Source: Bacteriovorax sp. MedPE-SWde
GTDB lineage: Bacteria > Bdellovibrionota > Bacteriovoracia > Bacteriovoracales > Bacteriovoracaceae
NCBI GenBank assembly: GCA_001874305.1
Contig: MPCU01000007.1
Coordinates: forward strand, 124,001 to 188,000
DNA length: 64,000 nucleotides
Direction of reading: 5' to 3'
Shown here: positions 1 through 17,118 of the stretch, piece after piece
Layout: each line of letters begins with the position of its first letter
How positions within the stretch are numbered: position 1 is the first letter of the stretch
The notes under the pieces: model-generated
What the model saw: only the letters and a program-made list of their open reading frames with translations
Databases searched by the model: none
Told to the model about the DNA's origin: nothing
Program-made: the position numbers and the translations under genes

Positions 1-45
1 ATTAGCTCCCACATGCCACAAACCAATACATGATATAAGAAATTT

Positions 46-1425
46 ATGAAAAATCTTCTTATTGCCCTAGCGCTAATCACCCCTCTAGCAAGTGTTGCAG
101 AGATACTTTCAGGTACTCACCTTAACGCTATACCAAGCTCTCTAAAGACAACAACGTGCTTTAATAAATCATTAATTAAAGAAAGCTTAACTTGTCCAAA
201 GGGAGAAGAGATAAAGGCGCTAGATAACAGGTTTCAAACAGCAGGGATTTTCTTATCTTTTATTCAAGGTGAGAACGAGCAATACCTAACAGAGATGCTA
301 AAGACCTTAAATGGTATTTCATACCGTGGGATTGTAAATATCCTATTTCAAAAAGGTAGCGAGAAAAAATATATAGATTTCATAATAAAGAAAAAAGGTA
401 AGCTAAATATAAATACTCACTCTTATGAGGATACGCCCAAAGTAAGTGTCTTTAAATGGCTGCAGGATGGTTTACAATTTGCTTACAAGGACAATAAACC
501 AGTAGTTATTGCGCTTAATAGTGTCCACGAGTTTTCTCGCGCTTATGATATAGCAGCAGAAGATGAAGAGCTTTTTAAATTCATACTTAATGATGTTCAC
601 AGTCGTTTCTCTGGTCAAATAGCAAGTTCATGTGGACTTGAACTAATCTATAAAGAAGATACACTTCAGGCCGAATCAAGAGATTGGTCTTCAGGAGGAA
701 ACTTCACTCCCCTTCCCGGAAACCACTGGACGACAGCAGCGAATGATTATGACTTTGATGAGTATCCTGGAAGACAAGAGACTCTTTATCCAGATGTAGC
801 GATGGGAGATTTTCCTTACTCTGCAATATTCTTTGAACCAGCACAAATCGCTTTTGTAGATACTGTGGGCGGAGCAAGAAACTCAATTGATATTCCAACC
901 GCCTATTTTGGAATTGGACATATCGACGAATCAATTTCAATCATTCCAACAGTAGCGACAAATAATGATGAGTGTGACTTTGGAATTCTCTATGCTGATC
1001 CAATTGCAGCAGCAAAGATCACGGGTGAAAGTTCACGCTATAGTGAAAATGATGACGATTATTACCTCGAAAGCTTTATTGAACGCTCAGAGTTTCTCAC
1101 GTCCTCTGTAATAGATCTAAAAGATACACTTGAGTCTAGATTAGGATGTAAAATTAAGGCCATTGCTGCGCCCGTAGCGACTAACATAGAACTAACTGAT
1201 TACTTAGATGGAAATCAACTCAATGGTCTTGTTATTCAGGATGGTATTAAGACAAGTTTCTTAACTTCGAAAGTAAAAAATAAGAAGTTAGATGAGTCTT
1301 TTGATAAGTCTCTTAAATCTCTCAATAGAGATTTAGGTATTCATACTATTGATGCATCTTACTATAATTCAGGAACTGGTGGGGTTCATTGCGCTACTGC
1401 TAGTATTAGAGTTTGTAAGAATTGA
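46..1425 (+). CDS. secreted protein-arginine deiminase-like (pentein) enzyme
   Basis: Predicted to convert peptidyl-arginine to citrulline outside the cytoplasm. Residues 1-18 form a signal peptide. The four catalytic landmarks of vertebrate-type PADs are visible in order: WLQDGLQFAY at 138-147 (Asp141, matching the WxQDExEFGY aspartate), GGNF at 217-220, GHIDE at 291-295 (His292 and Asp294) and GGVHCATA near the C-terminus with Cys449. At 459 residues it is shorter than the ~660-residue animal enzymes, as expected if it has mainly the catalytic propeller. Known family: PF03068. Inference: it could citrullinate surface or prey proteins. The left edge of the window hides its neighbour. No strong ribosome site precedes the ATG. 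The family call is fairly firm; the substrate is unknown. Confidence 0.8.
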   Translation: MKNLLIALALITPLASVAEILSGTHLNAIPSSLKTTTCFNKSLIKESLTCPKGEEIKALDNRFQTAGIFLSFIQGENEQYLTEMLKTLNGISYRGIVNILFQKGSEKKYIDFIIKKKGKLNINTHSYEDTPKVSVFKWLQDGLQFAYKDNKPVVIALNSVHEFSRAYDIAAEDEELFKFILNDVHSRFSGQIASSCGLELIYKEDTLQAESRDWSSGGNFTPLPGNHWTTAANDYDFDEYPGRQETLYPDVAMGDFPYSAIFFEPAQIAFVDTVGGARNSIDIPTAYFGIGHIDESISIIPTVATNNDECDFGILYADPIAAAKITGESSRYSENDDDYYLESFIERSEFLTSSVIDLKDTLESRLGCKIKAIAAPVATNIELTDYLDGNQLNGLVIQDGIKTSFLTSKVKNKKLDESFDKSLKSLNRDLGIHTIDASYYNSGTGGVHCATASIRVCKN

Positions 1426-1562
1426 ACTAACTAATTCACATAGAACAGTCACTGGTAATACTCTTAATAGAATAAGTTTTGTATGCACAGATATAAACAT
1501 TACCCGCCCCCTGCACTCAACTATCTAAACTCTTGCACTCATAGCCCTTCGTCATCAAATAT

Positions 1563-1585
1563 AGTATAATTTTAATAATTATACT
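1563..1585 (+). promoter_or_regulatory. perfect 9-bp inverted repeat before the HD-domain gene
   Basis: AGTATAATT, a 5-base loop and AATTATACT form a perfect dyad that ends five bases before the GGGAG ribosome site of the next gene. It overlaps TATAAT-like sequence, so it may be an operator over the -10 region or an mRNA hairpin hiding the ribosome site. No regulator is identified. Confidence 0.4.
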
Positions 1586-1603
1586 TTATGGGAGTTGACA
1601 GAG

Positions 1604-3382
1604 ATGCTTGATCAAGAGCTAGTAGACGACTTTAATCAACAAATAGAAGAGCAGTCTGAAATTGTTAAAAAAGCGCTAGAAACACTAAACGGAGACCTTT
1701 CAAATAGTGAGGCCTTTGTAGAATGTGGACAAGTAGTGGATCGTATTTACGGTGCAATCTCTATGTTTGGCTTTCCCGAACTTTCCGAGTATTTATTAAA
1801 ATTAAAAGAGATGAGCTATAAATGCTCAAACTCTGATCCTGAACACGAAGTACTAAGAACAAAGTGCATGAACCTTATTGAAGTCTATCACACAAGCAGT
1901 GCACTCTTTATAAGCGTTCTCTCAAGCGCCAAAAATGCAGCTCAGATAAACCAAAGTATTGCTCTTGAAACTAAGAAAGTAGATAAGATTCTCATGTCTT
2001 ATCTTCATGGGATTTCTGGAGGAAGTACTGGCTACGATGATACGAGAACTTATATTTATGTATATGATAAATTAGGAATAATTCAAGATCATTACAAAAG
2101 AATGAATAAAGAGCTTTATCCTGCACCAAAGTTTTTTAATGCCTACGCTGGCCTTAAGAAAGCAATTAAAGAAAATCATGAAGAGATCTCAGGAATTATA
2201 TTAGATGTTGAGAGTGACTCTTGGGAACTTGTCCTAAAAGAAATTCGAGAACAGAATCCTATTATTAGTATTTTTGTTACTGCAAAGAATAAACGACTCA
2301 TGAGCTCTATTGATTCGACGAAGCTTAAAGTACAAGGAGTTTTTCTAAACCATATCAAGTATACGAAATTTATTACAGAGTTTGAAAAAATAGAGCAAAG
2401 AGCAAAGACGGCCGAAGCAGAAGCAAATGAAACAACACAAGAGAATACGGCCGATAAGAAATATACAAAAGTTTCAATTGATGTCTTCAAGAGAGGCCTG
2501 CCAAGTCCATTTGATGTCTATCTCAAAATAAACGATGAAAAATACCTGAAGGTAATTAAGAAGGGAGAAGGAGTTGATCCCGAACAAGTAGAAAAGCATA
2601 GTCAAAAAAATATTGAGCAATACTATATTGACCAAACTGACTTTGATGAGTACCACTCCTCTTTAGATGATGAAATAAAGAAAATCCTAGATGACCCGAA
2701 TCTCAATATACGACAAAAGCAAAGAGTTGCTCTGGACTATGCCGACAACGTTACTTATTTACTGGAAACAAAAGGTGTAGACGAAAAGTCTCTCGTTTCA
2801 GCAAAACAATTTGTCGAGATGTCTGAAAAAATAGTTTCAGAAGTTGCACAAAGTAATGACCTAGTTAAAGATTTTTTAAGTGATCTCAGAAATATGGAAA
2901 GAGGCTCGATTCTTGCTATGCTAAGCGGTCTCTTCCTTAACAAAATGAAAGCAAGTCAAGATATTCATCAAGATGTTGCACTAATTTGCTTTCTACACGA
3001 TATTGCCTTAGCAGGGTCTCCAGCTCATGTAAAAGAAGGAAATCTTGAACTAATGAGCGAAGAGGAAAAAGAAGTTTTTATGAGGCACCCCAAAAAGGGC
3101 GCTCAAACTCTTGCAGAAGTCGGCCTAAAGCCTGCTCTACTAGAAGCAGTAATTCAACATCATGTTCGAATAGACAATAGTGGATTCCCTCAATTGCCAA
3201 AAGGTCAAAAGATTAACTCCATTGCTGAACTTATTGGGCTATGTGATGACTTTTCTAAAGTTCTAGAAGAATGTGATGAAACGGGTGAAGATCCTGTCGT
3301 TAAATTTAAGACACAAATGAATGGTCGATTTTCTAAGAAGTTAGTGGATGTATTCTCTCTTACATTTGCTTCTCCAAAATAA
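1604..3382 (+). CDS. degenerate receiver plus HD-GYP-like domain protein
   Basis: Cytosolic multidomain signalling protein. The N-terminal ~130 residues are helical and HPt-like. Residues ~145-265 look like a receiver fold without the usual acidic pocket. A ~70-residue segment (FDVYLKINDEKYLKVI) also occurs in the HD-GYP response regulator encoded at 31432-32793. The C-terminal third is an HD domain (FLHDIALAG, then a conserved HP and HH). The signature HHExxDGxGYP is altered to HHVRIDNSGFP, so cyclic-di-GMP hydrolysis may be weak or absent. An in-frame TTG lies 9 bases upstream, but ATG 1604 is chosen because GGGAG sits 9 bases before it. The 3' end overlaps the convergent bioY gene by 42 bp. 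Confidence 0.72.
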   Translation: MLDQELVDDFNQQIEEQSEIVKKALETLNGDLSNSEAFVECGQVVDRIYGAISMFGFPELSEYLLKLKEMSYKCSNSDPEHEVLRTKCMNLIEVYHTSSALFISVLSSAKNAAQINQSIALETKKVDKILMSYLHGISGGSTGYDDTRTYIYVYDKLGIIQDHYKRMNKELYPAPKFFNAYAGLKKAIKENHEEISGIILDVESDSWELVLKEIREQNPIISIFVTAKNKRLMSSIDSTKLKVQGVFLNHIKYTKFITEFEKIEQRAKTAEAEANETTQENTADKKYTKVSIDVFKRGLPSPFDVYLKINDEKYLKVIKKGEGVDPEQVEKHSQKNIEQYYIDQTDFDEYHSSLDDEIKKILDDPNLNIRQKQRVALDYADNVTYLLETKGVDEKSLVSAKQFVEMSEKIVSEVAQSNDLVKDFLSDLRNMERGSILAMLSGLFLNKMKASQDIHQDVALICFLHDIALAGSPAHVKEGNLELMSEEEKEVFMRHPKKGAQTLAEVGLKPALLEAVIQHHVRIDNSGFPQLPKGQKINSIAELIGLCDDFSKVLEECDETGEDPVVKFKTQMNGRFSKKLVDVFSLTFASPK

Positions 3383-3946
3383 AATATTTACTCCAGAAGC
3401 TGCTATCGTCTTAATCACCATACCTGGAAGAAACGGAAATAGTCCAAGTTGTAAAACATTGCTAAATCCAACGTAGAAGCCAAGCCAGATCAAACCAAAT
3501 ATAAATATAAGTGAATGACCAATTGCAAAAGTAATAAAAGCACTCTTTAGGTTACGGTCGGCCTTCATCTCAGCTAAAAGGCCCATTATAGAAGCTGCAA
3601 CAACAAAGCCTATGAGATAGCCTCCCGTAGGTCCCAAGATCTTAGCAATACCAAAACTGGCCCCTGAAAATACCGGCATCCCCAGCAGTCCAATAGCTAA
3701 ATATGAGACTGTTGTTATCGCCGCTCTTTTAGCACCATATAGGCTACCTATTATGAGAACTGCGAAGCTCTGTCCGGTTATTGGAACAGGGCTAAATGGT
3801 AAAGGGATCGAGACTTGTGCCATAAGAGATAATAGAGTTACACCAATTACTATCAGGGTCATATTGAGCAAGTGAGTATCTCTTAAATAAGTACGAAACC
3901 TAACATCAATATAATTATTACTTCCAAGATAAATTGAACTAAACAT
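3341..3946 (-). CDS. bioY: BioY, substrate-binding subunit of biotin ECF transporter
   Basis: Integral membrane S-component that captures biotin and normally works with EcfT and two ATPases, which are not in this window. About 200 residues with six hydrophobic helices. The family's hallmarks are clear: a PLPFSPVPITGQSFAVL loop near residue 50, GxxYGxKR, and a glycine-rich GPTGGYLIGF segment. The start has GGGAG seven bases upstream. The N-terminal ~28 residues are longer than in many BioY proteins. The gene ends inside the 3' end of the HD-domain gene. A MarR-type regulator is divergently transcribed and may control it; I see no canonical BirA site between them. Confidence 0.9.
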   Translation of the reverse strand: MFSSIYLGSNNYIDVRFRTYLRDTHLLNMTLIVIGVTLLSLMAQVSIPLPFSPVPITGQSFAVLIIGSLYGAKRAAITTVSYLAIGLLGMPVFSGASFGIAKILGPTGGYLIGFVVAASIMGLLAEMKADRNLKSAFITFAIGHSLIFIFGLIWLGFYVGFSNVLQLGLFPFLPGMVIKTIAASGVNILFWRSKCKREYIH

Positions 3947-4036
3947 ATAAACTCTCCCGTTAAAAACACTTGTTCTACGGTGCTAACAATAGTAGAAAAA
4001 TATGGGCTAATCTATTGTAAAATAGGTAGTTTCAAC

Positions 4037-4049
4037 CTAAACAGTTTAG
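4037..4049 (+). promoter_or_regulatory. candidate MarR operator (CTAAAC-A-GTTTAG)
   Basis: A perfect 6-bp dyad with one central base lies just upstream of the MarR-family start codon, in the bioY-marR intergenic space. Half of it (CTAAAC) recurs at 4052-4057, and another dyad (CTATT/AATAG) lies about 20 bp upstream. Position and symmetry suit an autoregulated MarR site. Confidence 0.4.
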
Positions 4050-4060
4050 AGCTAAACAAT

Positions 4061-4486
4061 ATGAAAATAGAAAATTATTTTAATAATAGTCCTGTTTTTT
4101 CCCTTATAGATCTAGGGAGAATGACTCAAAACTATATTAATAGTGACCTTAAAACCTTGGGACTCTCCTATTCCCAGGCGCTCATACTTGTCTCACTCTT
4201 TGTTGAAAATAGAGACAATATAATAGTGAAAGAATTAGTCGAAGTGTTTCCATTCACTAAAGGGGCGATTAGCCAAAATCTCTCAATTCTAGAAGAGAAA
4301 AAATATATAAAGCGACATAGCTCAAACGATAGGCGCAACACACTTTTAAAAGTAACAAGTACAGGAAAGAAGCTGGCCCAAGAAATCATGTCACTCTTAG
4401 AAAGTAGAGAACAAAGTTTTGAAAAGCTACTTGATCAAAACTTAATGAATCATTTAAAGGGTGTTAAAGAAATAATTAAATTTTAA
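4061..4486 (+). CDS. MarR-family transcriptional regulator
   Basis: Cytosolic dimeric winged-helix DNA-binding protein. The core (FPFTKGAISQNLSILEEK, then KRHSSNDRRNTLLKVTSTGKKL) is the recognition helix followed by the wing with the family's DRR motif. The reading frame is open further upstream to 3980, but those extra residues are encoded by the divergent promoter region and do not resemble MarR proteins. ATG 4061 gives a normal ~141-residue protein. It is divergent from bioY and therefore a candidate regulator of biotin uptake. The ligand cannot be told. Confidence 0.8.
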   Translation: MKIENYFNNSPVFSLIDLGRMTQNYINSDLKTLGLSYSQALILVSLFVENRDNIIVKELVEVFPFTKGAISQNLSILEEKKYIKRHSSNDRRNTLLKVTSTGKKLAQEIMSLLESREQSFEKLLDQNLMNHLKGVKEIIKF

Positions 4487-4586
4487 AACCTTTGGACTCG
4501 ATACAAAGAGAAGTGTAGGAAATACAAATAAGAAAAAAAGTTTCATATCTAAGTTCCTACATGTGATATTCTTTAGGTACGATATA

Positions 4587-5690
4587 TTAGTAAGCGTAGG
4601 TAAACTTAAGCGCCAGACCCATTGCAGTCGTTTCAGTTTTATAGAGATTCTCTGAATCTAGATCTGACACCTCTTGCGTCTCACTAGATGAGTAGAATGC
4701 TGAACCACCAAATGATGCTCCCTTACTACTACCAAATGAGAAGTTAATTATATGCTCTAGCCTATCTTGATAACCTGCTAAACCACCATAGATTAGTTTA
4801 TTATAAATTTCTTTTTCAAGGTCTGAAAATCCTTGCATTAAATAAAGTCCTGTATACCCTAGAGCTAAACTACCGAAATGTTTTTCAACAGTAAAACCAA
4901 ATCTTGATGGCGAATAGGTCTTATTCTGTACTGTGACGTCAGCTAATTCTTTTTCGTAGAAAGCCTCAAGATGAAATGTTTTACTACTAATCCCTGTTCC
5001 AAGCCCTACGACATTTTTACTCGTGTCAGTAGTCCCATCTGGTAAATTTGGATCTGCAGGAGTTGTTTTAGACTCTGTTTCATCCATTCGTCTCTCGAAG
5101 TAAGCACCGAGTCCAGACATTCTAAAACCTGCGCGCAATCGCGAAGTTGTTATTGTTGATTCTGTCTTCATGTTAATATTGATTGGACTTCCGCCTCCGC
5201 CAGGAGTTAGAGAAGTTTTAAAAGTATTATCAACTTTTAAAATATTTTGTGCTATTGAAACACCAAAGTGTTCACCAATACCAAAACCTAAACTATAAAG
5301 AGCAGAGTTTGCATCAACATCTGAAGATAATTCAGTCTGTGTAGAGTTTGGTAATTCGGCCTCATAATCCTGAGAACCATTTAGGATATCAACAATTATT
5401 TCAGTAGTAAAAGTACCTCCGCCCTTGCCACCGTAGAATCCATTTATAGTATTAATATTGACTGTTTCTGTAGTATTACTTCCGTCCGTGAAAGTTGATC
5501 CTGTAGATAGGTCTTGCTTCTTTTCCGATTTTACTTTTTGTGCGACAGCAGCGAAAGTTGCAGATTCACGCTTACCAATAACGGCAGGATTTATGGCCCT
5601 CATTTCTGGAAATATTGAAGAGGTAACCATTTGAGAATAAGCACCACTACTATTAAAAATAAGAAAAGAAAAAGCTAAGAACCTAAACAT
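4587..5690 (-). CDS. secreted outer-membrane beta-barrel-like protein
   Basis: Function not recognised. The protein begins with a clear signal peptide (MFRFLAFSFLIFNSSGAYSQ). It continues as alternating hydrophobic/polar strands rich in Gly, Ser and Thr, ending in ALKFTYAY, a typical barrel terminus with a C-terminal aromatic. It mentions INPAVIGKR early, a motif seen in several outer-membrane families. A longer reading frame starts at 5720, but GGGAG eight bases before the ATG at 5690 and the signal peptide favour the shorter start. It is transcribed toward the MarR gene, with no obvious terminator between. Confidence 0.6.
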   Translation of the reverse strand: MFRFLAFSFLIFNSSGAYSQMVTSSIFPEMRAINPAVIGKRESATFAAVAQKVKSEKKQDLSTGSTFTDGSNTTETVNINTINGFYGGKGGGTFTTEIIVDILNGSQDYEAELPNSTQTELSSDVDANSALYSLGFGIGEHFGVSIAQNILKVDNTFKTSLTPGGGGSPININMKTESTITTSRLRAGFRMSGLGAYFERRMDETESKTTPADPNLPDGTTDTSKNVVGLGTGISSKTFHLEAFYEKELADVTVQNKTYSPSRFGFTVEKHFGSLALGYTGLYLMQGFSDLEKEIYNKLIYGGLAGYQDRLEHIINFSFGSSKGASFGGSAFYSSSETQEVSDLDSENLYKTETTAMGLALKFTYAY

Positions 5691-5804
5691 TAAATGTCTC
5701 CCAATAAATAAAACTGTCAATATATTTTAATATATAAATAGCTTGAATGGAATTGGTCCAGATATTCCCTTTTACGATAATATTGATTGAATTAAAATTA
5801 TTTT

Positions 5805-5836
5805 AAGGGGAAGAGGTTGCTTTTTGGATAGTGGAC
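5805..5836 (+). repeat. possible decayed copy (E) of the structured repeat, 3' core only
   Basis: GGGAAGAGGTTGCTTTTTGGATAGTGGA resembles the best-conserved 3' core (GAAGAGATTGCTGTTTTGG then ATGGTGGA) of the repeats at 9.1, 13.6, 15.9 and 18.7 kb. The paired segments of the intact copies are not recognisable here, so it is only a possible relic. Confidence 0.35.
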
Positions 5837-5880
5837 AAGAAGATCAAATATTTATGTTTACGCGCTTACTTTATAAAATA

Positions 5881-6657
5881 CTAATCAAAACAAAAGTTAA
5901 ACATCTCTTGATTTTCGGGCATATTAAGTTGATCTACAATACGTTCTTGAACTTTATTCTTCTTTCCATAGCGAAGACTTCCCGAACTTGTCATAACTCC
6001 ATCATCACCATATGTAAGAACTGACCAATAGTAATGGCGAGTACTGATTCCTTGCTTTAACGGTTGATCCGGAAACAGCCTTCCGATAATTCCAGGATAC
6101 TTTCCTCTATTTCCACTAAGTTGATTATTCATAATTTGAACACCACACTGAAGATTATTTAAAGGATCTAATAGCCAAGGTTGGGATTGTGAATTGTGAC
6201 AGCCATTACCATGCCAACTGTCCTTAGACGATAATTGAAGAAGTCCCAATGGTAGTTCATTTTTTGCGGCCCTCGCTCTGTCTGCTGCATTTCGAGGAAC
6301 CATTTGAATATTTCTATAACCAGATTCAAATTTTGCCATTGAAGCAAAGACAACCACCCAGAATTGTTTCTTCTGAGTGTCATTTGCTTTATTAAATCCT
6401 AAGCAATCAACTGCCCTTAGGTCTTTATCTGCAATTGTTATATTTAGAAGATTCGAACCATAGCGCTCAATAGACTTTTCTAAGTGCTGAGACCACTCAT
6501 TTTCCCAAACAATATCTCCAGCATCATATATTTCTGGCTGACCTTGAATAGTTAAACTCGCCTTTAAGTTCGAAAATCCATTTGCATCATCACCAGATCC
6601 ACATGACACTAATGTCATTGAAAATAGAGAAATAATAATGAGCTTTAAGCCTTTCAT
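5881..6657 (-). CDS. lipoprotein with lysozyme-like (transglycosylase) fold
   Basis: Predicted peptidoglycan-cleaving or binding lipoprotein. The signal peptide ends in a lipobox (LVSC, Cys19). The central region has the lytic-transglycosylase pattern: MAKFESGYRN with the likely catalytic Glu111, then PLGLLQLSS, then a helix containing CGVQIMNNQLS, corresponding to the ES, GLMQ and N-A-G helices of SLT domains. Several cysteines suggest periplasmic disulfides. Total 258 residues. It stands alone on this strand, with a strong small hairpin upstream. Activity on peptidoglycan is inferred from the motifs. Confidence 0.65.
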   Translation of the reverse strand: MKGLKLIIISLFSMTLVSCGSGDDANGFSNLKASLTIQGQPEIYDAGDIVWENEWSQHLEKSIERYGSNLLNITIADKDLRAVDCLGFNKANDTQKKQFWVVVFASMAKFESGYRNIQMVPRNAADRARAAKNELPLGLLQLSSKDSWHGNGCHNSQSQPWLLDPLNNLQCGVQIMNNQLSGNRGKYPGIIGRLFPDQPLKQGISTRHYYWSVLTYGDDGVMTSSGSLRYGKKNKVQERIVDQLNMPENQEMFNFCFD

Positions 6658-6697
6658 CCTGGTCCTTATAGAAACGATTTTTCTTCTTTATATCATT

Positions 6698-6717
6698 AAC
6701 TCTGTAGAGACAGAGTT
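6698..6717. promoter_or_regulatory. 8-bp inverted repeat upstream of the lysozyme-like lipoprotein
   Basis: AACTCTGT-AGAG-ACAGAGTT is a perfect hairpin or operator 40 bp before the lipoprotein start. No T-run follows on either strand, so it is not a standard terminator. Confidence 0.35.
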
Positions 6718-6724
6718 ACTCTAT

Positions 6725-6743
6725 AAAAAAGACAGGGCCTGTC
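6725..6743 (-). terminator. Rho-independent terminator after yqhD
   Basis: Read on the minus strand, GACAGG-C-CCTGTC is followed by six T. It lies ~105 bp beyond the yqhD stop and would end that transcript. Confidence 0.65.
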
Positions 6744-6826
6744 AAAAACGTAAGCACTTGAAGAGTGCATAATTCTGAGTATTTAAACTATGTCCTATCA
6801 ATAACTTACGTTCTTGCTGCCCTATT
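6744..6826 (-). ncRNA. structured 3' UTR or small RNA candidate downstream of yqhD
   Basis: Between the yqhD stop and its terminator lies a nested fold. AACGTAAG (6747-6754) is exactly complementary to CTTACGTT (6805-6812), with an inner GCACT/AGTGC hairpin at 6754-6768. GCCCT just outside (6819-6823) could also pair with AGGGC in the terminator. This could be a structured 3' UTR, a processed sRNA or a small inserted palindromic element. No homologue is recognised. Confidence 0.3.
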
Positions 6827-6847
6827 GAACCAATGAAGACATTAAAA

Positions 6848-8005
6848 TTACTTAGCACTAATCAGTATTTTTTTAACTATATCAAGCCCTAGGTCCTGAG
6901 TTTCAGATAAAGCTGTAAGGCCCATTTTCTCCATATTCCCTACAATTTGATCAATTCCTTTATCATCAATTCCATAGTGAGTAAGGTTTGTAACGATATC
7001 TAAAGAATTGAAAAACTCCTCTGTCTTGTCGATTGCTTTATCAATTTTCTCATCAACAGTTCCCTCTTTAAGATTCCACACTCGTTCGGCATATTGTAGT
7101 AGCTTCTCACGCTTCTTATCTTTTCTCTCTCTTAATAAATAAGGCAAAATAATAGCGAGTGTTCTTCCATGGGCGATCCCATAAGAGGCAGTCATTTCAT
7201 GACCTATCATATGAGTTGCCCAATCATGCGCAACACCAACACCGATGAATCCATTTAAGGCGGTAGTTGCAGACCACATAAAATTCTTTCTTGCTTCGAT
7301 ATCTTCATTATCGTTATAAGTCACAGGTCCTACTTCTAACAATGTTTGTAAGATACCTTCAGACATTCTATCTTGTACTTTAGCGTTTATTGGTAGAGTA
7401 ATATACTGTTCAACAACATGGACAAAAGCATCGGCAACGCCATTAGCAACCTGCTCTTTAGGAAGTGTCTTTGTAAAATCAGGATCTAAGAATGAAAACT
7501 TAGGAAATGTTAAAGCTGACATTACCGGGTACTTTTGTTCATTAAAAGTTATAACTGCTCCCATATTTGATTCTGAACCAGTGGCCGGAAGTGTAACGAC
7601 ACAACCAAGATCTGTTGCCTTTGTAGCTGGGACACCACCAAATCCGTGCATAAGAATATCCTGTGCGTCTTTCTCGTAGTGCATAGCAAGTGCGATGAAT
7701 TTAGTTCCATCCATCACTGATCCACCACCAACGGCCAAAAGGAAATCAACTTTTTCAGACTTGGCCAAGTCAGTTGCCTTTACTAGAGTTTCAAACTGAG
7801 GGTTAGCTTCAACTCCACCAAACTCAACGACCTCTCTCTTTCCAAGCCCTTCAACAACCTTAGCGATTGTTCCAAACCTCTTTGCGCTTCCACCACCATA
7901 GACAATCATGACTTTTGCATCTTGAGGTATTAACTGGTCTAGTTCATTGAGTCTATTTTGCCCAAAGACAATCTGTGTTGGGTTATAAAAATTAAAATCT
8001 AACAT
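6848..8005 (-). CDS. yqhD: YqhD-type NADPH-dependent alcohol/aldehyde dehydrogenase
   Basis: Cytosolic iron-type alcohol dehydrogenase (group III) that reduces short-chain and reactive aldehydes with NADPH. Its 385 residues match E. coli YqhD (387) along the whole length. The cofactor segments are YGGGSAKRFG and VGGGSVMDG. The metal ligands Asp192, His196, His265 and His279 sit in ADAFVH and HDWATHMIGHEMTASYGIAHG with the family's 14-residue spacing. A GGAG-type ribosome site precedes the ATG. It is divergent from an AraC-family gene of the YqhC type, the same arrangement as in enterobacteria, so aldehyde-induced control is likely. Confidence 0.93.
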   Translation of the reverse strand: MLDFNFYNPTQIVFGQNRLNELDQLIPQDAKVMIVYGGGSAKRFGTIAKVVEGLGKREVVEFGGVEANPQFETLVKATDLAKSEKVDFLLAVGGGSVMDGTKFIALAMHYEKDAQDILMHGFGGVPATKATDLGCVVTLPATGSESNMGAVITFNEQKYPVMSALTFPKFSFLDPDFTKTLPKEQVANGVADAFVHVVEQYITLPINAKVQDRMSEGILQTLLEVGPVTYNDNEDIEARKNFMWSATTALNGFIGVGVAHDWATHMIGHEMTASYGIAHGRTLAIILPYLLRERKDKKREKLLQYAERVWNLKEGTVDEKIDKAIDKTEEFFNSLDIVTNLTHYGIDDKGIDQIVGNMEKMGLTALSETQDLGLDIVKKILISAK

Positions 8006-8090
8006 GATATTTCTCCTTTAGAATTTGCCCAAATTTATAAATAGACTTTAATGGAAATTTGGATTTTTCAAAATACATAGACCTACTTAC

Positions 8091-8131
8091 ATTATGCCTA
8101 AAACTACAAATCTTAGAGAACTAGGCATAAT
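8091..8131. promoter_or_regulatory. 10-bp inverted repeat in the yqhD-yqhC intergenic region
   Basis: ATTATGCCTA (8091-8100) and its exact complement TAGGCATAAT (8122-8131) are 31 bp apart start to start, about three helical turns. This suits a dimeric AraC-family activator and is the best candidate YqhC site. Confidence 0.45.
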
Positions 8132-8181
8132 CAGTAATTTAATATGCTATAGTAAACAAAGAGAAGAGATAAGGGATAAAT

Positions 8182-9048
8182 ATGGAAAAGCACATAGAAC
8201 AGGCGAGTAAACTACTAAAATCAGAAGGAATTAATTCAACATACCTTCCACAAGTATCTATATTCACTGCAAAAAGCAGTACCGAGAGAGCCCCCTTAGT
8301 TTACAACCAGGGTGTCATATTCATGCTTCAAGGAGAGAAATGTATACACACAGAAAGTGATACATTCACTTATAATAGAGAAAACCTTCTCGTGATTACT
8401 GTACCAATGCCACTAGAGTGCCAAGGCATTGTAAAAGATAATAAGCCGATGATAGCTGTTGTTATGGATATTGAAATATCACTTCTCAATCAACTTATAA
8501 ATATGATGGAAGGCACTAGCACTATTTCAAAAGTTGATAAGGGAGATAGAGATAAAGGACTCTTTGTTTCTAAGTTAAATGAAAGTATTAAAGATGCGCT
8601 ACTTAGATTGCTCATCTGCCTTCAAGATCCCTTCGAGGCCAGCGTTCTTGGAAATAATATTATTAAAGAGTTAATATTCTATATACTTAAGCAAAGAGAA
8701 GCAGCTCCTTTATTCGCATTAGCAATGAAGAATACAAACCTATCTAAAATTGAAATTGCACTAAAAGATGTTCAAAGCAACTACTCAAAGCAATTCAATG
8801 TAGATGCCTTAGCGAAGTCAGTTAACATGAGTGTATCATCATTTCATCACACATTTAAAAATGTTACTTCTTCGTCTCCTATTCAGTACTTAAAAAAAAT
8901 ACGTCTTAACAAGGCAAAAGACTTCCTTACCAATGAAAAGTACTCGGTAGGAGAAGCTGCGACAAATGTTGGTTACGAAAGTGTTAGTCAGTTTAATAGA
9001 GAGTTTAAACGGTACTTTGGTGTAACTCCGGGCTCACTTAACAAGTAG
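8182..9048 (+). CDS. yqhC: YqhC-like AraC-family regulator
   Basis: Transcription activator, probably of the divergent yqhD. The N-terminal ~180 residues form the AraC_N cupin-like sensor (GVIFMLQGEKCIHT, then VITVPMPLECQG). The C-terminal ~100 residues hold two helix-turn-helix motifs (FNVDALAKSVNMSVSSFHHTFK and VGEAATNVGYESVSQFNREFKRYFG). Its 288 residues are normal for the family. AAGGG ahead of the ATG is a usable ribosome site. In E. coli the orthologous pair responds to glyoxal and other aldehydes; the same role is inferred here. Confidence 0.85.
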   Translation: MEKHIEQASKLLKSEGINSTYLPQVSIFTAKSSTERAPLVYNQGVIFMLQGEKCIHTESDTFTYNRENLLVITVPMPLECQGIVKDNKPMIAVVMDIEISLLNQLINMMEGTSTISKVDKGDRDKGLFVSKLNESIKDALLRLLICLQDPFEASVLGNNIIKELIFYILKQREAAPLFALAMKNTNLSKIEIALKDVQSNYSKQFNVDALAKSVNMSVSSFHHTFKNVTSSSPIQYLKKIRLNKAKDFLTNEKYSVGEAATNVGYESVSQFNREFKRYFGVTPGSLNK

Positions 9049-9097
9049 TACTTAGCAACTATTGGACTATTTTCGTCATAGCAAACATCCACTTATT

Positions 9098-9238
9098 AAA
9101 GGACAGGACGAATTAGACACTATTCCCCCCTCCCCCTGTTAAGTAGAAAAAACTTTATGATACAACTATAGACACGTTTATAGTTTATTTCTCAGATGGA
9201 AGAGATTGCTGTTTTGGATGGTGGATTTTCTTAGTTAG
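9098..9238 (+). repeat. structured interspersed repeat, copy A (full)
   Basis: Full-length member of a family also found at 13607, 15930 and 18677. Paired segments: P1 GACAGG (9102-9107) with CCTGTT (9135-9140); P2 hairpin AACTATAGA (9164-9172), loop CACG, TTTATAGTT (9177-9185); P3 GGATGGT (9216-9222) with a degenerate CCCTCC just before CCTGTT. P1 differs from copies B and C by a compensatory T-A to C-G change. The 3' CTTAGTTAG (9230-9238) is matched by CTAACTAAG at 9293-9301. Its left border touches a possible 12-codon minus-strand gene end (9059-9097); an IS3 start lies downstream. Confidence 0.75.
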
Positions 9239-9310
9239 TAATATCTTCAATCAAGATTTTGTTTACAACCCCCATTTCGAGTTGACGCTTTTCTAACTAA
9301 GGAAAAGTAC

Positions 9311-9379
9311 ATGAGAAGAAAGCGTAGAACTTTCACGAAAGAACAAAGAATGATGATTATTTACTCCAAGATCATATAA
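9311..9379 (+). mobile_element. IS3-family transposase OrfA remnant (N-terminus only)
   Basis: ATG at 9311 opens a 22-codon frame, MRRKRRTFTKEQRMMIIYSK..., which is the typical start of IS3-family OrfA proteins (KRRTFTKE). It stops at once and no DDE region follows, so only a scrap of an insertion sequence remains. It sits 72 bp past repeat copy A, which raises the question whether the repeat derives from an IS end. Confidence 0.5.
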
Positions 9380-9402
9380 AAATGCCACGTATTAAACGTG
9401 GC
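9378..9402 (-). terminator. terminator of the nitroreductase gene
   Basis: On the minus strand GCCACGT-TTAAT-ACGTGGC is followed by ATTTTTAT, ten bases after the nitroreductase stop codon. The stem is perfect over 7 bp. Confidence 0.75.
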
Positions 9403-9411
9403 CTTAAAACA

Positions 9412-10185
9412 TTATAGAAAACCCTGATTTTTTAGATAAGATAATAGATTCTGACTATATAGAATATGTGACTCTTCAGTATATTTTAACTGTGTATATA
9501 CTTGAGCAAGATTCGTAATTTCCTTTTCACTTAAAATCTTTCTTAATTTTTTGTCATCTAAGTACCTCTTCATCCCCTCAGTGTTCTTATCCTCATGAGT
9601 TTTCAAAACTTCATAATCTGAATCAACTCTATATTTCTCATAATGAATGATACTTTTAAGAGGTAGTCTTTTTCGAATTCCTACTTCCTCATCGGGATAA
9701 CCAAGAGCAAAGCCAACAATAGGAACAACATTCTCAGGTAACTCTAAAACACGGCCAATTTCACTAGCTGAAGCAAGAGTTGTTCCCATATAGCATAACC
9801 CTATGCCTAGACTTTCAGCGGCGAGAGCGGCATTCTGACTAGCAAGGGTGGCATCAATAGAGGCAATCATAAAGCTCATAAAGTTATCGAAATTATTTGC
9901 AGCATCACTTAACTCTCCCCACCTTCTCATGCGATTAAAATCAGCACAAAAGGTGAGAAAGACAGGTGATTCTAAAAGCATAGGTTGTTTAAAATGCGCC
10001 TCATCCATAAGTTTTTTAACATCATGATCTTTTGATACAATTATTGAATAAGTTTGCATATTTCCAGAACTAGAGGCCATTGTTGCAGCTTCTAATATTT
10101 TCATGAGTATATCTTCTTCAATGTCTCGTTTTTTGAACTTTCTTATAGAGCGATGTGATAAGATTTGATTAATAACGGCATTCAT
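9412..10185 (-). CDS. NfsA/NfrA-type nitroreductase (FMN flavoprotein)
   Basis: FMN-dependent NAD(P)H oxidoreductase of the nitroreductase superfamily, cytosolic, probably a dimer. The FMN phosphate motif HRSIRKFK lies at the start. ASSSGNMQTY and the later MIASIDATLASQNAALAAESLGIGLCYMG helix match the NfsA subgroup, as does GFALGYPDE. The frame is open to 10230, but homology begins at MNAVINQIL. GAGG lies five bases before the ATG at 10185 and two bases before another at 10188. The start overlaps the upstream secreted-protein gene by 17 bp, implying translational coupling. The physiological substrate (nitro compound, quinone, flavin) cannot be told. Confidence 0.85.
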   Translation of the reverse strand: MNAVINQILSHRSIRKFKKRDIEEDILMKILEAATMASSSGNMQTYSIIVSKDHDVKKLMDEAHFKQPMLLESPVFLTFCADFNRMRRWGELSDAANNFDNFMSFMIASIDATLASQNAALAAESLGIGLCYMGTTLASASEIGRVLELPENVVPIVGFALGYPDEEVGIRKRLPLKSIIHYEKYRVDSDYEVLKTHEDKNTEGMKRYLDDKKLRKILSEKEITNLAQVYTQLKYTEESHILYSQNLLSYLKNQGFL

Positions 10186-10549
10186 CATCGCCTCTCTTCT
10201 TTCCTGTAAAACGGGCGAATGTCGAATCATTCTGCTTTAGAACACCTTTCACAGAACAATAACTATCGAACTCACCAACAAGTTCTACTAAAAACTCTTC
10301 TCCCCTTTCTTTGGCCATAAAAGAGCCTGAGAGATGACTCTTCACAAGCTTTCCACTGAAATCTGATTTAAAGACATTATTGACTTCAAATTTCCCAGAG
10401 ACCTCTCCACTTACATTTATCGTACTAATATATAGAATATCGACGAATGAATTATTATTAATTTTCACATCTAAATCATAGATACCTACAAAGTTAGACG
10501 CACCAATGCTATTGCTCATAAATAAGAGCATTAATATACACTTCTTCAT
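10169..10549 (-). CDS. small secreted protein, function unknown
   Basis: 126 residues with a signal peptide (cleavage near SIGAS). The mature part is a run of short strands (VGIYDLDVKI, VDILYISTINVSGEVSGKF, FSGKLVKSHLSGSFMAKE), resembling a small beta-barrel or lipocalin-like fold but without a family I can name. Two cysteines occur in the mature part (CSVK and DECRY). It precedes and overlaps the nitroreductase gene, so both are probably one transcript. Confidence 0.6.
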   Translation of the reverse strand: MKKCILMLLFMSNSIGASNFVGIYDLDVKINNNSFVDILYISTINVSGEVSGKFEVNNVFKSDFSGKLVKSHLSGSFMAKERGEEFLVELVGEFDSYCSVKGVLKQNDSTFARFTGKKRGDDECRY

Positions 10550-10744
10550 TATTTCTCCAAAAGAAAATAAGTTTTAAATTTAAATTTTAGGTATAAAAAT
10601 AGATTAAATGGCCTTACGCCACCAGAGGATTGCAATAGAAATAGCATATCGACAGAGTCTACAATTCATTCGATTAAAATATAAATTATACACTCATGAG
10701 TAAATTACTATTTTATTACATATTCTAACAGTTGAAAGATAACA

Positions 10745-10803
10745 TTAAAAAAGAACCCCAATAGTATAACCAAGTGTTCCAACTGTAGTGTCTTCTGCCT
10801 TTC
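10745..10803 (-). pseudogene. C-terminal fragment of an outer-membrane barrel protein
   Basis: The minus-strand frame ends KAEDTTVGTLGYTIGVLF and stop, a classical barrel terminus with C-terminal Phe. No upstream part exists: the sequence passes directly into the solute-binding-protein fragment on the other strand at ~10805. It is one of several gene scraps in this region. Confidence 0.5.
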
Positions 10804-10804
10804 T

Positions 10805-11009
10805 TATCGATTAATGGTAAGAAAAAGAAGGGCCGACTGTTTTCCTCGATCTACTTTTGGAGTTAGATGGAGAGGTTAAGAATAGGAAACTATCTTACTC
10901 AATACTAGTGGAGAATAGTTTCGCCATTCAGTAGGATACTCCGATGTACTTCTTTGTTAGAAAAGATAATATAAAACTTCATGGAGAAATAGAGAGATTT
11001 ATACAATAA
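10805..11009 (+). pseudogene. decayed paralogue of the solute-binding protein at 19285-20085
   Basis: RKRRADCFPRS, then after a one-base shift LELDGEVKNRKLSYSI, an in-frame stop after FAIQ, and DTPMYFFVRKDNIKLHGEIER matches the C-terminal half of the protein encoded on the minus strand at 19285-20085 almost residue by residue. A frameshift, a stop and loss of the N-terminal half show it is dead. It suggests duplication of that gene followed by decay. The ~155 bp downstream, to the next start, hold nothing recognisable. Confidence 0.8.
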
Positions 11010-11165
11010 ATTAAAGCAAAGGTTGAGAGTAAATTGGCCATAATCTATACACCTCTAAATAATAATACAATACTGATCCATAACTATATGTAATGACATT
11101 CAATATATGGCCTTGTTCTTGCTTTAAATATGTAAACATACTTAAAATTGAAACCAGGATCATTT

Positions 11166-12416
11166 ATGAAGAGATACTTAAAAATAGTTCTTAGCTTACT
11201 TCTATGTGCAAACTTAGCTGCTAGTGACCATATTGATGGACCGGCAACTACAAAGCATAAGGTTGGAGATTTAACAGATTTATTTGCATTTCCTAGCCCT
11301 ATGAAGTCTGGTCATATGAGTTTAATTCTAAATATGTATCCAGTCTTAGGTAAGACAGGTCACTTCTCTAAGAAGATTGATTATAGGTTAATAATTAAGA
11401 AAGTTAATATTGAAAATGGTGAATTTTCTTTGGGTGAGCAAAGAGTAATAACATGTAAATTTAAGTTACCTCCAGTAAGAAGAAGAGCTCATCAACATAC
11501 TCATCATTCACATACTCATGGCCATATTGAACACACTAAACCTCGCGCAACTTGTACAACAAGCAATGGTCTTATTGCGAAGAACATCAATAATGTCATT
11601 AATAATCAGGATGAATCAGATGACTTTAAGTTATTTGTCGGAAGAAGGTCTGACCCATTCTTTTTTAATGCAGGATGGGCCGCAAAAACTAGTACCAAAG
11701 GTATAATAGCCGAAGCCAAAGATAGCAATGTTATGAAGAATATAAACGTATTAAGTATTTCAATTGAAATTGATATGAATAAACTCTTCGATGGTAGTGA
11801 AACATCTCTTTATGCAATTTCTGCGGAATCTTTTACTCAAGATAATAGAGTGTCTCCAGAAAGAATACTAGACCGTGTTGGAAGACCAGAGGTTACAAAT
11901 GTTAGTATGGTTAAGCAAGAAGGAGATGATGAACTTCGAGACCTCTTTAATGGAGAGAGATCTTTTGAGATTGAAAGTTCAAACGCTAAGCTCTATCAAG
12001 AAAGACTTGACAATAATATCTCATACTTTGATGGCCTTGATGGTAAAACTAATTGGGATCAAAAAGAAAAAGAAAAGCTTGTTGATATTTTAGTTGATGA
12101 CTTTCTTGTTGTTGATATTTCAAAGAAGTGTAATGGTGATAATTTTTTAGACATTGAAAAATCGTTGATAAGAAATACTGACCACACAAGTTGTGGAGGA
12201 AGAAAACTTACTGATGATATAATGGATACTCTTTTTACTTATTACATAAATTCTGACAAGGGAGAGAGAATCAAAGATGGTGTCTCAACTCCTGGAAAGA
12301 TGCCTTTGAATGAATTTCCTTATATTGCTGGACCTTATAAAGGTTTTGCAGCTTGGAGTAAAACTCAACTATCAAAAGTCGCTTTGTTTTTAGGGTCTTT
12401 ATTTAACGTTCTATAA
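11166..12416 (+). CDS. DUF4331-family secreted protein with histidine-rich insert
   Basis: A signal peptide of ~20 residues is followed by SDHIDGP and VGDLTDLFAFPSP, the hallmark start of DUF4331 (PF14224), whose members normally read SSHREAP...DVYAF. Function is not established for the family. A histidine-rich insert, HQHTHHSHTHGHIEH, near residue 112 could bind metal. The C-terminal part (CGGRKLTDDIMDTLFTYYI, PLNEFPYIAGP) also matches the family. AGGA seven bases upstream selects ATG 11166 over an ATG six codons earlier. Single gene with its own terminator. Confidence 0.78.
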   Translation: MKRYLKIVLSLLLCANLAASDHIDGPATTKHKVGDLTDLFAFPSPMKSGHMSLILNMYPVLGKTGHFSKKIDYRLIIKKVNIENGEFSLGEQRVITCKFKLPPVRRRAHQHTHHSHTHGHIEHTKPRATCTTSNGLIAKNINNVINNQDESDDFKLFVGRRSDPFFFNAGWAAKTSTKGIIAEAKDSNVMKNINVLSISIEIDMNKLFDGSETSLYAISAESFTQDNRVSPERILDRVGRPEVTNVSMVKQEGDDELRDLFNGERSFEIESSNAKLYQERLDNNISYFDGLDGKTNWDQKEKEKLVDILVDDFLVVDISKKCNGDNFLDIEKSLIRNTDHTSCGGRKLTDDIMDTLFTYYINSDKGERIKDGVSTPGKMPLNEFPYIAGPYKGFAAWSKTQLSKVALFLGSLFNVL

Positions 12417-12475
12417 TATGAACCACTTGTTAAATGTTGTTTATATCATATAAAAAGCTATATATTGAAATCTGT

Positions 12476-12510
12476 TGGCGCTAGGCTATTAAGTTTGCTA
12501 GCGCCATTTT
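12476..12510 (+). terminator. terminator after the DUF4331 gene
   Basis: TGGCGCTAG, a 13-base loop and CTAGCGCCA make a perfect 9-bp stem followed by TTTT, about 60 bp past the stop codon. Confidence 0.7.
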
Positions 12511-12513
12511 AAG

Positions 12514-12589
12514 CTATCCATAATCCTTTAATACAGTTTTCTTTGCAACAACATTCAATGTCACTTTCGGAAGAAAAGAACCAAAATCA
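12514..12589 (-). pseudogene. C-terminal gene fragment fused to repeat copy F
   Basis: The minus-strand frame reads DDFGSFLPKVTLNVVAKK then TVLKDYG and stop, ordinary protein-like sequence with no beginning. Its upstream border is exactly where repeat copy F breaks off. The parent family is not recognised. Confidence 0.45.
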
Positions 12590-12660
12590 TCTATAGTTGT
12601 ATTACAAAGCTTCTTGGAATTAATAGGGGGTCGTTTGAAAAGAGTGCCTAATTCTCCCTA
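12590..12660 (-). repeat. structured repeat, copy F (5' half, minus strand)
   Basis: Read on the minus strand, GAATTAGGCACTCTTTTCAA, CCCCTATTAATT, then CTTTGTAATACAACTATAGA follow the family consensus. The similarity stops in the first arm of the P2 hairpin, where a gene fragment begins. The 3' half, including the most conserved core, is missing. It is the only copy in this orientation. The ~115 bp between it and the next gene hold nothing recognisable. Confidence 0.7.
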
Positions 12661-12775
12661 CACTTTGTCTAAACTTTAGACATATAGAAACTATCACAAT
12701 TTAAAGCTTTATCGCAATGAAGTCTCGATATGTTATATACTCCTGTTAATTTGTAATGGTTTTATAGGAGAAAAA

Positions 12776-13510
12776 ATGAAGAAACTTTTTTTTATCGCTG
12801 CTTTATTAAGTAGTACCCTTTCTAACGCAAACTTATTAGTAGATGAGTATATTCAGAAAATCGATAGTGTTGAATGTAAGGTAGAAAAAGTTGAAAATGA
12901 ACTTAAAGAAAATCTAAGAGAAGAGTTTAATACAATTAATACAATCAATGGAAATAAGACAGTTCTAAAAGGAATGAAAGGACTACTTGATGATGCTACT
13001 TTAGTAGCACAGATTCAAACAGCACTTCAAATTGGGCCCCTAGTAGGACTTGGTATTCACGGTGCTGTTATGTACTCATTCTATCCAAGCTATTTTTCTT
13101 TATCTTACTTAGTCGAAGCTTCTTTCATGGCAGATAAGGGAGCTCGAATTGGTGCCCAGGTATTTATGGCAGCAGGAGTTCTTCCCACTTTCTTTAAGTC
13201 TGATGATATCATTCTTAGTGGCGTTAACCTTGACGACGAAAAGTACGATGATGCAAAAGTTTACCTAAATGAAGGTTTAGTTATTGAAGATATTAATAAA
13301 AGACTTGAAGACCTACGCGAAAGCCAACCAGAAATCAAAGTAACTGAAGATGGTGCTATCGCGAACTTCCTTGAAGAAAAAATGTACTGGAAGAAAGCTC
13401 TAAGATATGAAGACATTATCGAGAATTTAATTGAGCAGCAACGACTTCTTACAGCTAAGACGAAGTCACTTAAGTACCAAAAGGATATTTTAGAAAAGAT
13501 TTGTGAATAA
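12776..13510 (+). CDS. secreted protein with coiled-coil ends, function unknown
   Basis: 244 residues with a signal peptide (cleavage near SNANL). A short N-terminal coiled coil (VECKVEKVENELKENLREEF) and a C-terminal helical stretch ending DILEKICE flank a hydrophobic centre (residues ~75-135). That centre is rich in Gly and Ala and might be membrane-associated (IQTALQIGPLVGLGIHGAV). Two cysteines, one near each end, could pair. TAGGAG precedes the ATG. Monocistronic, with an excellent terminator. No family recognised. Confidence 0.6.
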   Translation: MKKLFFIAALLSSTLSNANLLVDEYIQKIDSVECKVEKVENELKENLREEFNTINTINGNKTVLKGMKGLLDDATLVAQIQTALQIGPLVGLGIHGAVMYSFYPSYFSLSYLVEASFMADKGARIGAQVFMAAGVLPTFFKSDDIILSGVNLDDEKYDDAKVYLNEGLVIEDINKRLEDLRESQPEIKVTEDGAIANFLEEKMYWKKALRYEDIIENLIEQQRLLTAKTKSLKYQKDILEKICE

Positions 13511-13513
13511 TAT

Positions 13514-13543
13514 AAAAAAGGAGCTGATCAGCTCCTTTTTTTA
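13514..13543 (+). terminator. strong Rho-independent terminator
   Basis: AAAA, the palindrome GGAGCTGATCAGCTCC and then seven T lie three bases after the stop codon of the secreted protein gene. Confidence 0.9.
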
Positions 13544-13606
13544 TCTTTTTTCTAATTCATCTCTAACTTCAACACATTTGATCGCTTGAGGGCACATATA
13601 GTCCTT
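13541..13606 (-). pseudogene. C-terminal gene fragment abutting repeat copy B
   Basis: The minus-strand frame reads KDYMCPQAIKCVEVRDELEK, Arg and stop, and begins where repeat copy B begins. A stop in the same frame lies inside the repeat. It looks like the tail of a protein cut by the repeat. Parent not recognised. Confidence 0.4.
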
Positions 13607-13725
13607 AAAGGATAGGACGAATTAGTTACTCATTTCAAACCATCCCCTATTAATTATAAATTCGTTTATAATTAATTTCTTAGATGGAAGAGACTGCTGT
13701 TTTGGACGGTAGATCATCTTAGTTA
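13607..13725 (+). repeat. structured interspersed repeat, copy B (shorter form)
   Basis: P1 GATAGG (13611-13616) pairs with CCTATT (13646-13651). P2 is a perfect 11-bp hairpin with a TTCG loop (13650-13675). P3 ACCATCC (13639-13645) pairs with GGACGGT (13704-13710) with one mismatch. This copy lacks the ~25-base insert (AAACTTTATG...) that A, C and D carry before P2. The 3' core and the terminal CTTAGTTAG are kept. Confidence 0.78.
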
Positions 13726-13748
13726 GATCAATGTAATCTTTTAACTTT

Positions 13749-14669
13749 TTATTTCGATATAAATATCTGATTCTCAACAAACCAATCATTAAGAATCTTT
13801 TTAAATGTACGCTGTTTCTTGTTTACATAACTCTGTTTAGGATAAACCATATAGATAGTATTGCCAGTAATACTAAATTTAGGAAATAGTTGAATAAGCT
13901 TCTTTTCTTTTAACTCTCTGTGAACCATAAAGAGTGGGATTCTACCGATACCATGACCATCCAAACAAAGGGTTCTTACTGATTCAAACGTAGAACTAGA
14001 AATTGGTCCTGAAACTGGAACAACATATTCTTTCTTCCCTTTATAGAAAACCCAACTATTATGACCTTTGATACAGCTGTTAATAATACATGGGAGCTCT
14101 GTTAGTTCATCTGGACATATATCGGCTATATTTAACTTCTTTAGAAGTTTAGGTGATATACAAATGGCCTCTTTCCATTTACCCATATATTTAGCGATCA
14201 GATCGGGTTCAGTAACTGAATTAATTCTCAGAGCAAAGTGCACTTCACCTTTATTGAAGTCTCTATATTGTTGAGAGAAATCCATTTGCAAATGTGTATT
14301 AGGAAATTCTTCTTTAAAGGCATTAGCAATATCTGAAGCTATGAAATTCCCTAAACTAGGAGCAGTGGAGAACTTGAGATCACCATGATCATCTTCAACG
14401 AGACCTTTTAATTCATTAGAAGCGTTATTTGTTAAGTTCACTAATTGTTTTGTGTAGCTTAAAAGTGATTCGCCTTCTTGAGTTAAGTTGAAATGCCTTG
14501 TTGTGCGATTAATAAGTTGTGCACCAAGAAGAGACTCTATTTGCTTAACATGTTTACTAACTTGAGACTTTGAAAGGCCAAGCTCTTCTGAACCCTTTGT
14601 AAAACTTAGGTGTTCTGCAACATAGTGAAAGCTAATTAGTTCAGAGTGATATTTATTGAGTGTTTCCAT
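13749..14669 (-). CDS. LysR-family transcriptional regulator
   Basis: The N-terminal winged helix-turn-helix is typical (FHYVAEHLSFTKGSEELGLS then KSQVSKHVKQIE, LLGAQLINRTTR). Residues ~95-300 form the periplasmic-binding-like effector domain, with FSTAPSLGNFIASDI at its start. Normal length of 306 residues. It is divergent, 94 bp away, from a metallo-beta-lactamase-fold lipoprotein, the usual LysR layout, so that gene is its likely target. Effector unknown. Confidence 0.88.
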   Translation of the reverse strand: METLNKYHSELISFHYVAEHLSFTKGSEELGLSKSQVSKHVKQIESLLGAQLINRTTRHFNLTQEGESLLSYTKQLVNLTNNASNELKGLVEDDHGDLKFSTAPSLGNFIASDIANAFKEEFPNTHLQMDFSQQYRDFNKGEVHFALRINSVTEPDLIAKYMGKWKEAICISPKLLKKLNIADICPDELTELPCIINSCIKGHNSWVFYKGKKEYVVPVSGPISSSTFESVRTLCLDGHGIGRIPLFMVHRELKEKKLIQLFPKFSITGNTIYMVYPKQSYVNKKQRTFKKILNDWFVENQIFISK

Positions 14670-14763
14670 ACAGAAACAGTATGTTCTTGATTGTGTCTTT
14701 AATCAACCAAAAAATAAGCTATTCTTTTAATCAATTCGGAAACAAATTAATTTTGGAGATAAA
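14670..14763. promoter_or_regulatory. divergent LysR / lactonase-like intergenic region
   Basis: This 94-bp AT-rich space must hold both promoters and any LysR site. TTTAATCAA and TTTTAATCAATT repeat about 34 bp apart and may be recognition elements. GGAG lies five bases before the lipoprotein start. Confidence 0.4.
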
Positions 14764-15603: not shown

Positions 15604-15615
15604 ACTAAAGTTTTC

Positions 15616-15637
15616 AGAGGGGCTTTGCTCCTCTTTT
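15616..15637 (+). terminator. terminator of the lactonase-like gene
   Basis: AGAGGGGC, a TTT loop and GCTCCTCT (one G-T pair) followed by TTT, twelve bases after the stop codon. Confidence 0.75.
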
Positions 15638-15700
15638 CGTTGTTATACAATATCCCTCGTTTCTTTGCTGTTTTTTTGTAAAGTAACAGTAGAGGCATTT

Positions 15701-15907
15701 ATGGCTGAGACAAGCTTTTTAATGAAAGATAGTATTAATTCAAGAGTGGTTAAAGAGCTTAGTAGTTGAATAAAGAAAAAATATAAAAGCTTTGATGTAG
15801 AGGGGTTCTGCTCTGCTATAAATAAGGAATTCAAGAAGCTAGAGTTGAAAGAGCGTATTTATCTTGTGTCTCATTGTTTAAACGAATATCTTCCTAAAAA
15901 TTTTTGA
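15701..15907 (+). pseudogene. N-terminal fragment of an AlkC-like DNA glycosylase gene
   Basis: The frame begins MAETSFLMKDSINSRVVKEL with AGAGG upstream. It has an in-frame TGA at 15767, then continues YKSFDVEGFCSAINKEF and LELKERIYLVSHCLNEYLP before ending. This pattern (F-NxxxVxxL, FDxxxFxxA, LELKxRxxH) matches the start of AlkC-type HEAT-like alkylation-repair glycosylases, which run to over 200 residues. Only ~68 codons remain, stopping 22 bp before repeat copy C. Confidence 0.55.
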
Positions 15908-15929
15908 AAGAGCAGTTAAGATTTTAATT

Positions 15930-17093: not shown

Positions 17094-17118
17094 AATTGAT
17101 TTCTCCCAATTTATTTTG

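Follow-up and report, generated by a model that had tools for sequence, protein, structure and literature searches.

The PAD gene and its surroundings

The window analysed, a 64,000-nucleotide stretch of Bacteriovorax sp. MedPE-SWde (contig MPCU01000007.1, positions 124,001 to 188,000), carries near its start an intact ORF of 459 codons with an ATG start, which encodes a homologue of the PAD-type arginine deiminases (Table 1). By inspection and a hydropathy scan, the N-terminus, MKNLLIALALITPLASVA followed by E, was recognised as a standard Sec signal peptide, from which we infer that the protein is exported out of the cytoplasm.

Table 1. Coordinates of the PAD-type gene, its predicted functional sites and the surrounding segment (window positions)
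Feature	Position	Strand	Basis
Gene for single-domain PAD-type (PAD_C) deiminase homologue, predicted to be exported (459 aa)	46..1425	+	ORF, homology, model
Predicted Sec signal peptide, residues 1-18 (MKNLLIALALITPLASVA)	46..99	+	Sequence inspection, hydropathy scan
Region superposing on the PAD4 catalytic domain (residues 54-459 on PAD4 294-655)	205..1422	+	VIA-align
D141 codon (PAD4 D350)	466..468	+	Translation, alignments
Q144 codon, at the position of PAD4 calcium-1 ligand E353	475..477	+	Alignment with PAD4
GGNFT (217-221); N219 invariant, T221 at the position of PAD4 calcium-1 ligand E411	694..708	+	Alignments
H292, I293 and D294 codons (PAD4 H471, D473)	919..927	+	Translation, alignments
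N393 codon (PAD4 N588), invariant	1222..1224	+	Alignments
C449 codon, nucleophile candidate (PAD4 C645)	1390..1392	+	Translation, alignments
Window part of the ~23-kb segment between gcvP and prfC, absent there in G049, G050 and G052	1..23011	.	Congener comparison

The gene lies 288 bases after gcvP, with an HD-domain gene next downstream, and no obvious operon partner was found among its neighbours. In the congeners G049 and G050, prfC directly follows gcvP, and in G052 a single small ORF lies between the two. As gcvP and prfC are adjacent or nearly so in these congeners, the ~23 kb that includes the PAD gene separates both genes here, prfC starting at window position 23012. Besides the PAD and HD genes, the segment encodes BioY, MarR, Fe-ADH, AraC, nitroreductase, DUF4331, LysR, MBL-fold, cation efflux and WD40-repeat proteins. 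No integrase or transposase domain was found among the proteins scanned in the segment, no shared repeat of at least 10 bases was found at its two ends, and no tRNA lies within the window. Beyond prfC, G049 and G050 carry a CheY-like gene and then a gene for a protein of 1023-1031 aa, similar in size and position to the amidoligase-type protein of the window (25172-28255). Two proteins of the window were also recorded: a 777-aa protein with WD40-type repeats (20261-22594, minus strand), and the product of a 1407-aa ORF (36487-40710, plus strand), for which Pfam gave nothing at E 0.001.

A candidate structured RNA of ~130 nt was also observed between gcvP and the PAD gene (L055:9766-9900, spanning ~235 to 100 bases ahead of the first window position). 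A long stem, ACGTAGATAAGATTAGG...CCTAATCTTATCTACG, encloses a nearly invariant loop, GGGAATCACAACACGAA...GGGGAACAAAGAACAAACACAACAAC, and compensatory changes were seen in 9 of the 25 predicted pairs. Four of the genus's genomes carry the element, and in three of them it lies near the end of gcvP with prfC next. It had no Rfam match, and its 26-base core, with up to 2 mismatches allowed, was found in no other of the 369 phylum genomes.

Sequence relationships of the protein

When compared alone with the Pfam profile PF03068 (PAD), the protein scored 15.9 bits (E 0.0067) against a cut-off of 25, a suggestive score when taken by itself. This gathering score, which is a curation threshold and not a biological trait, was reached by its relatives. 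A PF03068 profile search of the protein's own genome gave no match at E 0.001, indicating strong divergence of this PAD member. Within the taxonomic family, a protein search produced matches in 19 of 129 genomes, its own counted. Two alignments were used: A1, consisting of the protein and 17 relatives (18 rows, without animal sequences), and A3, with 36 rows from Bdellovibrionota, Myxococcota, Actinomycetota, Cyanobacteriota, Campylobacterota, Bacillota and Pseudomonadota, the named relatives being taken from GTDB genomes. All members of both alignments matched PF03068 (best 3.1e-22 in A1 and 4e-116 in A3), the PAD-type protein itself weakly.

A leave-one-out profile built from the 17 relatives recovered the protein at E 2.2e-43 (148.9 bits) and reported none of 200 shuffles, so the match is above chance. 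The A1 profile also reached the human PAD3 and PAD4 chains at ~3e-28. Together with the structure match and the invariant tetrad described below, these results identify the protein as a PAD-type (PAD_C) homologue; its homology and fold are near certain.

The arginine deiminase (ADI) family PF02274 gave a weak match to the C-terminal part only (15.7 bits against a cut-off of 22.8, E 0.008). For the Pfam family of PPAD and AgDI, no match was listed with E up to 10, a list from which weak matches may have been filtered. NCBIfam, PHROGs and PADLOC returned no meaningful match, which leaves both an origin in phages and a recognised function in defence unsupported.

Predicted structure and active site

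An AlphaFold2 model was built with A3 as input (pLDDT 79.1, pTM 0.83), the core being of high confidence. The top VIA-align match was PAD4 (Z 32.7, rmsd 2.8, 313 aligned residues, 19% identity), with model residues 54-459 superposing on PAD4 294-655. The first 46 entries were all PADs (Z 26.6-32.7), placing PAD catalytic domains as the best structural matches, and were followed by the Porphyromonas PPAD (Z 26.4) and by 1xkn (Z 26.3), a putative agmatine-deiminase-type peptidyl-arginine deiminase. Foldseek TM-scores, by query length, were a modest 0.44-0.52 because the whole chain was aligned, with high rmsd, and the VIA-align comparison was preferred. Since everything past the first ~53 residues, signal peptide counted, corresponds to the PAD catalytic domain, there is no room for the PAD_N or PAD_M domain of a classical PADI.

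The Asp-His-Asp-Cys tetrad of PAD_C was found in its WxQD, GHxDE and HC motifs, as WLQD141, GH292-I-D294-E and VHC449. Twelve residues were invariant across A3: D141, G218, N219, P224, H292, D294, E295, P376, N393, G445, H448 and C449. In the alignment with PAD4, the residues kept were W347, Q349, D350, G408, N409, P414, H471, D473, E474, N588, Y636, H644 and C645. The superposition and this conservation suggest that D141, H292, D294 and C449 would lie in one pocket.

These data confirm the observation made in the initial annotation and bear out its interpretation in part. The PAD-type identity agrees with the leave-one-out profile, the PAD4 match and the full tetrad, and the export it claimed is consistent with the predicted signal peptide. 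Its tetrad positions were exact and align with the animal PAD active site as it stated. The PAD4 overlay it had suggested places the protein on the PAD catalytic domain, and the lower Z for PPAD fits its view that the Porphyromonas enzyme belongs to a different branch.

The calcium-1 site was compared by sequence only. Its side-chain ligands in PAD4 are Q349, E353 and E411. The first is retained as Q140, and the other two are replaced by Q144 and T221, so that the ligand set of a classical calcium-dependent PADI is incomplete. Both glutamates are retained in 24 of 40 Bdellovibrionota relatives and both are gone in a few, and the tetrad persists in other Bdellovibrionota members despite this variation. 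In L058, the calcium-1 residues Q, E and E are all retained. T221 for E411 is one of three departures at positions that nearly all relatives conserve, the others being N441 for H637 and A452 for N648. PAD4 R639, a substrate-side residue, corresponds to G443, and an arginine is likewise absent there in most bacterial PADs. The R374 region was placed ambiguously, with N182 at this position in the PAD4 alignment and R187 in A3; R372 falls in the same variable stretch, on which the two alignments disagree.

These positions bear on a different reading, in which a PAD-fold deiminase or related guanidino-group enzyme acts on small guanidino compounds such as arginine or agmatine, or on C-terminal arginine alone, as agmatine deiminase and PPAD do, and not on protein-internal arginine. 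The glycine at R639, the ambiguous R374 region, the weak PF02274 match and a fold common to PPAD and 1xkn would all be compatible with such a substrate. We nevertheless consider this rather unlikely: the closest relatives in both sequence and structure are PAD_C proteins, with Z values ~6 above those of PPAD and AgDI; R639 is missing from most bacterial PADs too; and export makes a role in free-arginine metabolism less natural.

Distribution and phylogeny

The A1 profile detected copies in 76 of 369 Bdellovibrionota genomes (21%), in 57 of the 235 good-quality genomes and in 51 of the 182 genera; with PF03068 alone, 61 genomes of the phylum were positive. In a UniProt survey, 0.76% of bacterial species had a PADI (PMC8826395). 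The methods behind the two figures differ, yet their comparison suggests that the family is unusually frequent in this phylum. The description of such enzymes in the initial annotation as uncommon in bacteria is thus upheld across all bacteria and fails within Bdellovibrionota. By a crude rule, an export-like hydrophobic N-terminal segment was present in 32 of 42 Bdellovibrionota PADs versus 11 of 33 others.

Among the congeners examined, no PAD was detected in G048-G050, and the PAD genes of G051 and G052 belong to other subfamilies and lie at other sites; no ortholog of the present gene was detected in any of them. In G060, of the same taxonomic family, at least four distinct genes of the PAD family occur (L008, L020, L021 and L025), a possible expansion.

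In a quick maximum-likelihood tree with SH-aLRT support, the animal, cyanobacterial, actinobacterial, myxobacterial and other non-Bdellovibrionota PADs formed one group (SH-aLRT 100). The protein grouped with other exported Bdellovibrionota PADs (SH-aLRT 93, not starred), its exact place being unsure. As judged from sequence and tree, it is a member of a diverse, mostly exported, single-domain Bdellovibrionota PAD group that lies outside the animal, cyanobacterial, actinobacterial and myxobacterial group.

The branch leading to the protein is long (2.8 changes per column) which, together with the three departures noted above, suggests that specificity or activity may have changed. The same branch length, the changed calcium-1 positions and other departures, and the lack of a detected copy in three congeners would also fit a pseudoenzyme or decaying copy, comparable to PADI6, with fold and tetrad retained and catalysis abolished by the changes at the calcium and substrate sites. 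This appears improbable. All catalytic residues have been retained despite great divergence, the ORF is intact with its signal peptide, the model core is of high confidence, and the tetrad is kept in other members of the phylum whose calcium-1 positions vary. The catalytic cysteine, lost in PADI6 (PMC9174705), is present here.

Proposed activity

Taking these results together, we favour, with moderate confidence, a single-domain arginine deiminase of PAD type that is exported, performs PAD4-type hydrolysis on extracytoplasmic peptide or protein arginine and lacks the calcium switch of animal PADs. The catalytic domain would be preceded only by a signal peptide and a short N-terminal extension. 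Deiminase activity is likely. In a mechanism carried over from PAD4, D141 and D294 would bind the guanidinium group, C449 would attack it with H292 as general acid/base, and hydrolysis would release citrulline and ammonia. The substrate is most likely arginine in peptides or proteins, and the site of action may be the periplasm, the cell surface, the medium or prey. Given the missing PAD_M and the two changed calcium-1 side-chain positions, we hypothesise that the enzyme is probably not switched by calcium as animal PADs are.

With regard to the site of action, Bdellovibrionota is a phylum known for predators. One sub-case of the favoured reading is delivery of the enzyme to the prey surface or periplasm, where it would neutralise arginine charges of prey proteins. 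Predicted export and the occurrence of the family in 21% of the phylum genomes are in keeping with this role. No secretion-system or effector gene adjoins the PAD gene, however, and no copy was detected in the other 79% of phylum genomes, so this is not a core predation gene; overall, a predation role is judged unlikely.

Comparison with known systems

The literature describes three-domain and two-domain PAD types (PMC8826395, PMC9174705), and the catalytic-domain-only exported group would be a further variant with respect to the open-access literature. In the mostly open-access literature searched, no description of the exported Bdellovibrionota PAD_C proteins as a group was found, nor any paper on PADs in Bdellovibrio or predatory bacteria, nor activity measurements for a PAD of this phylum, which is weak evidence of absence. 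We tentatively raise the possibility, itself rather doubtful, of a third PAD architecture in Bdellovibrionota that is exported, catalytic-domain-only and in places calcium-independent, modifies arginine in envelope or prey proteins and falls outside the two known PADI types. If true, predatory bacteria would citrullinate proteins extracellularly, and the group would provide a candidate minimal PAD. The functions of bacterial PADs have been called completely unknown in a review (PMC9174705). A group that keeps the tetrad and includes members lacking the calcium-1 glutamates offers a natural test of whether PAD catalysis needs calcium or the middle domain, and of whether extracellular proteins are a target of citrullination by predatory bacteria.

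With the animal PADIs (PAD1-4 and PAD6; three-domain, PF03068), the protein shares the fold of the catalytic domain and the complete tetrad. It differs from these in lacking PAD_N and PAD_M, in having a signal peptide and in carrying Q144 and T221 for E353 and E411, with ~19% identity over the aligned residues. With these differences and a tree placement outside the animal group, it is not a classical or animal-like PADI. With the two-domain bacterial and fungal PADIs (Streptomyces, Myxococcus; PMC8826395), it has the PAD_C family and the invariant residues in common; those proteins have ~190-290 residues before PAD_C, compared to ~53 here (signal peptide counted), and form a separate supported group in the tree (SH-aLRT 100). 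The Porphyromonas gingivalis PPAD shares the guanidine-deiminase fold and export, but its sequence family is different, and pPAD has been placed outside the PADI clade (PMC8826395). The protein also resembles the exported Bdellovibrionota PAD_C proteins (L058-L066, L002-L013 and others), which share the single domain, the GGN motif, the tetrad, a Cys-containing N-terminal segment and, mostly, an export-like N-terminus. The close members of this group are mostly 515-650 aa long and carry an insert ahead of their last third, compared to 459 aa for the protein described here.
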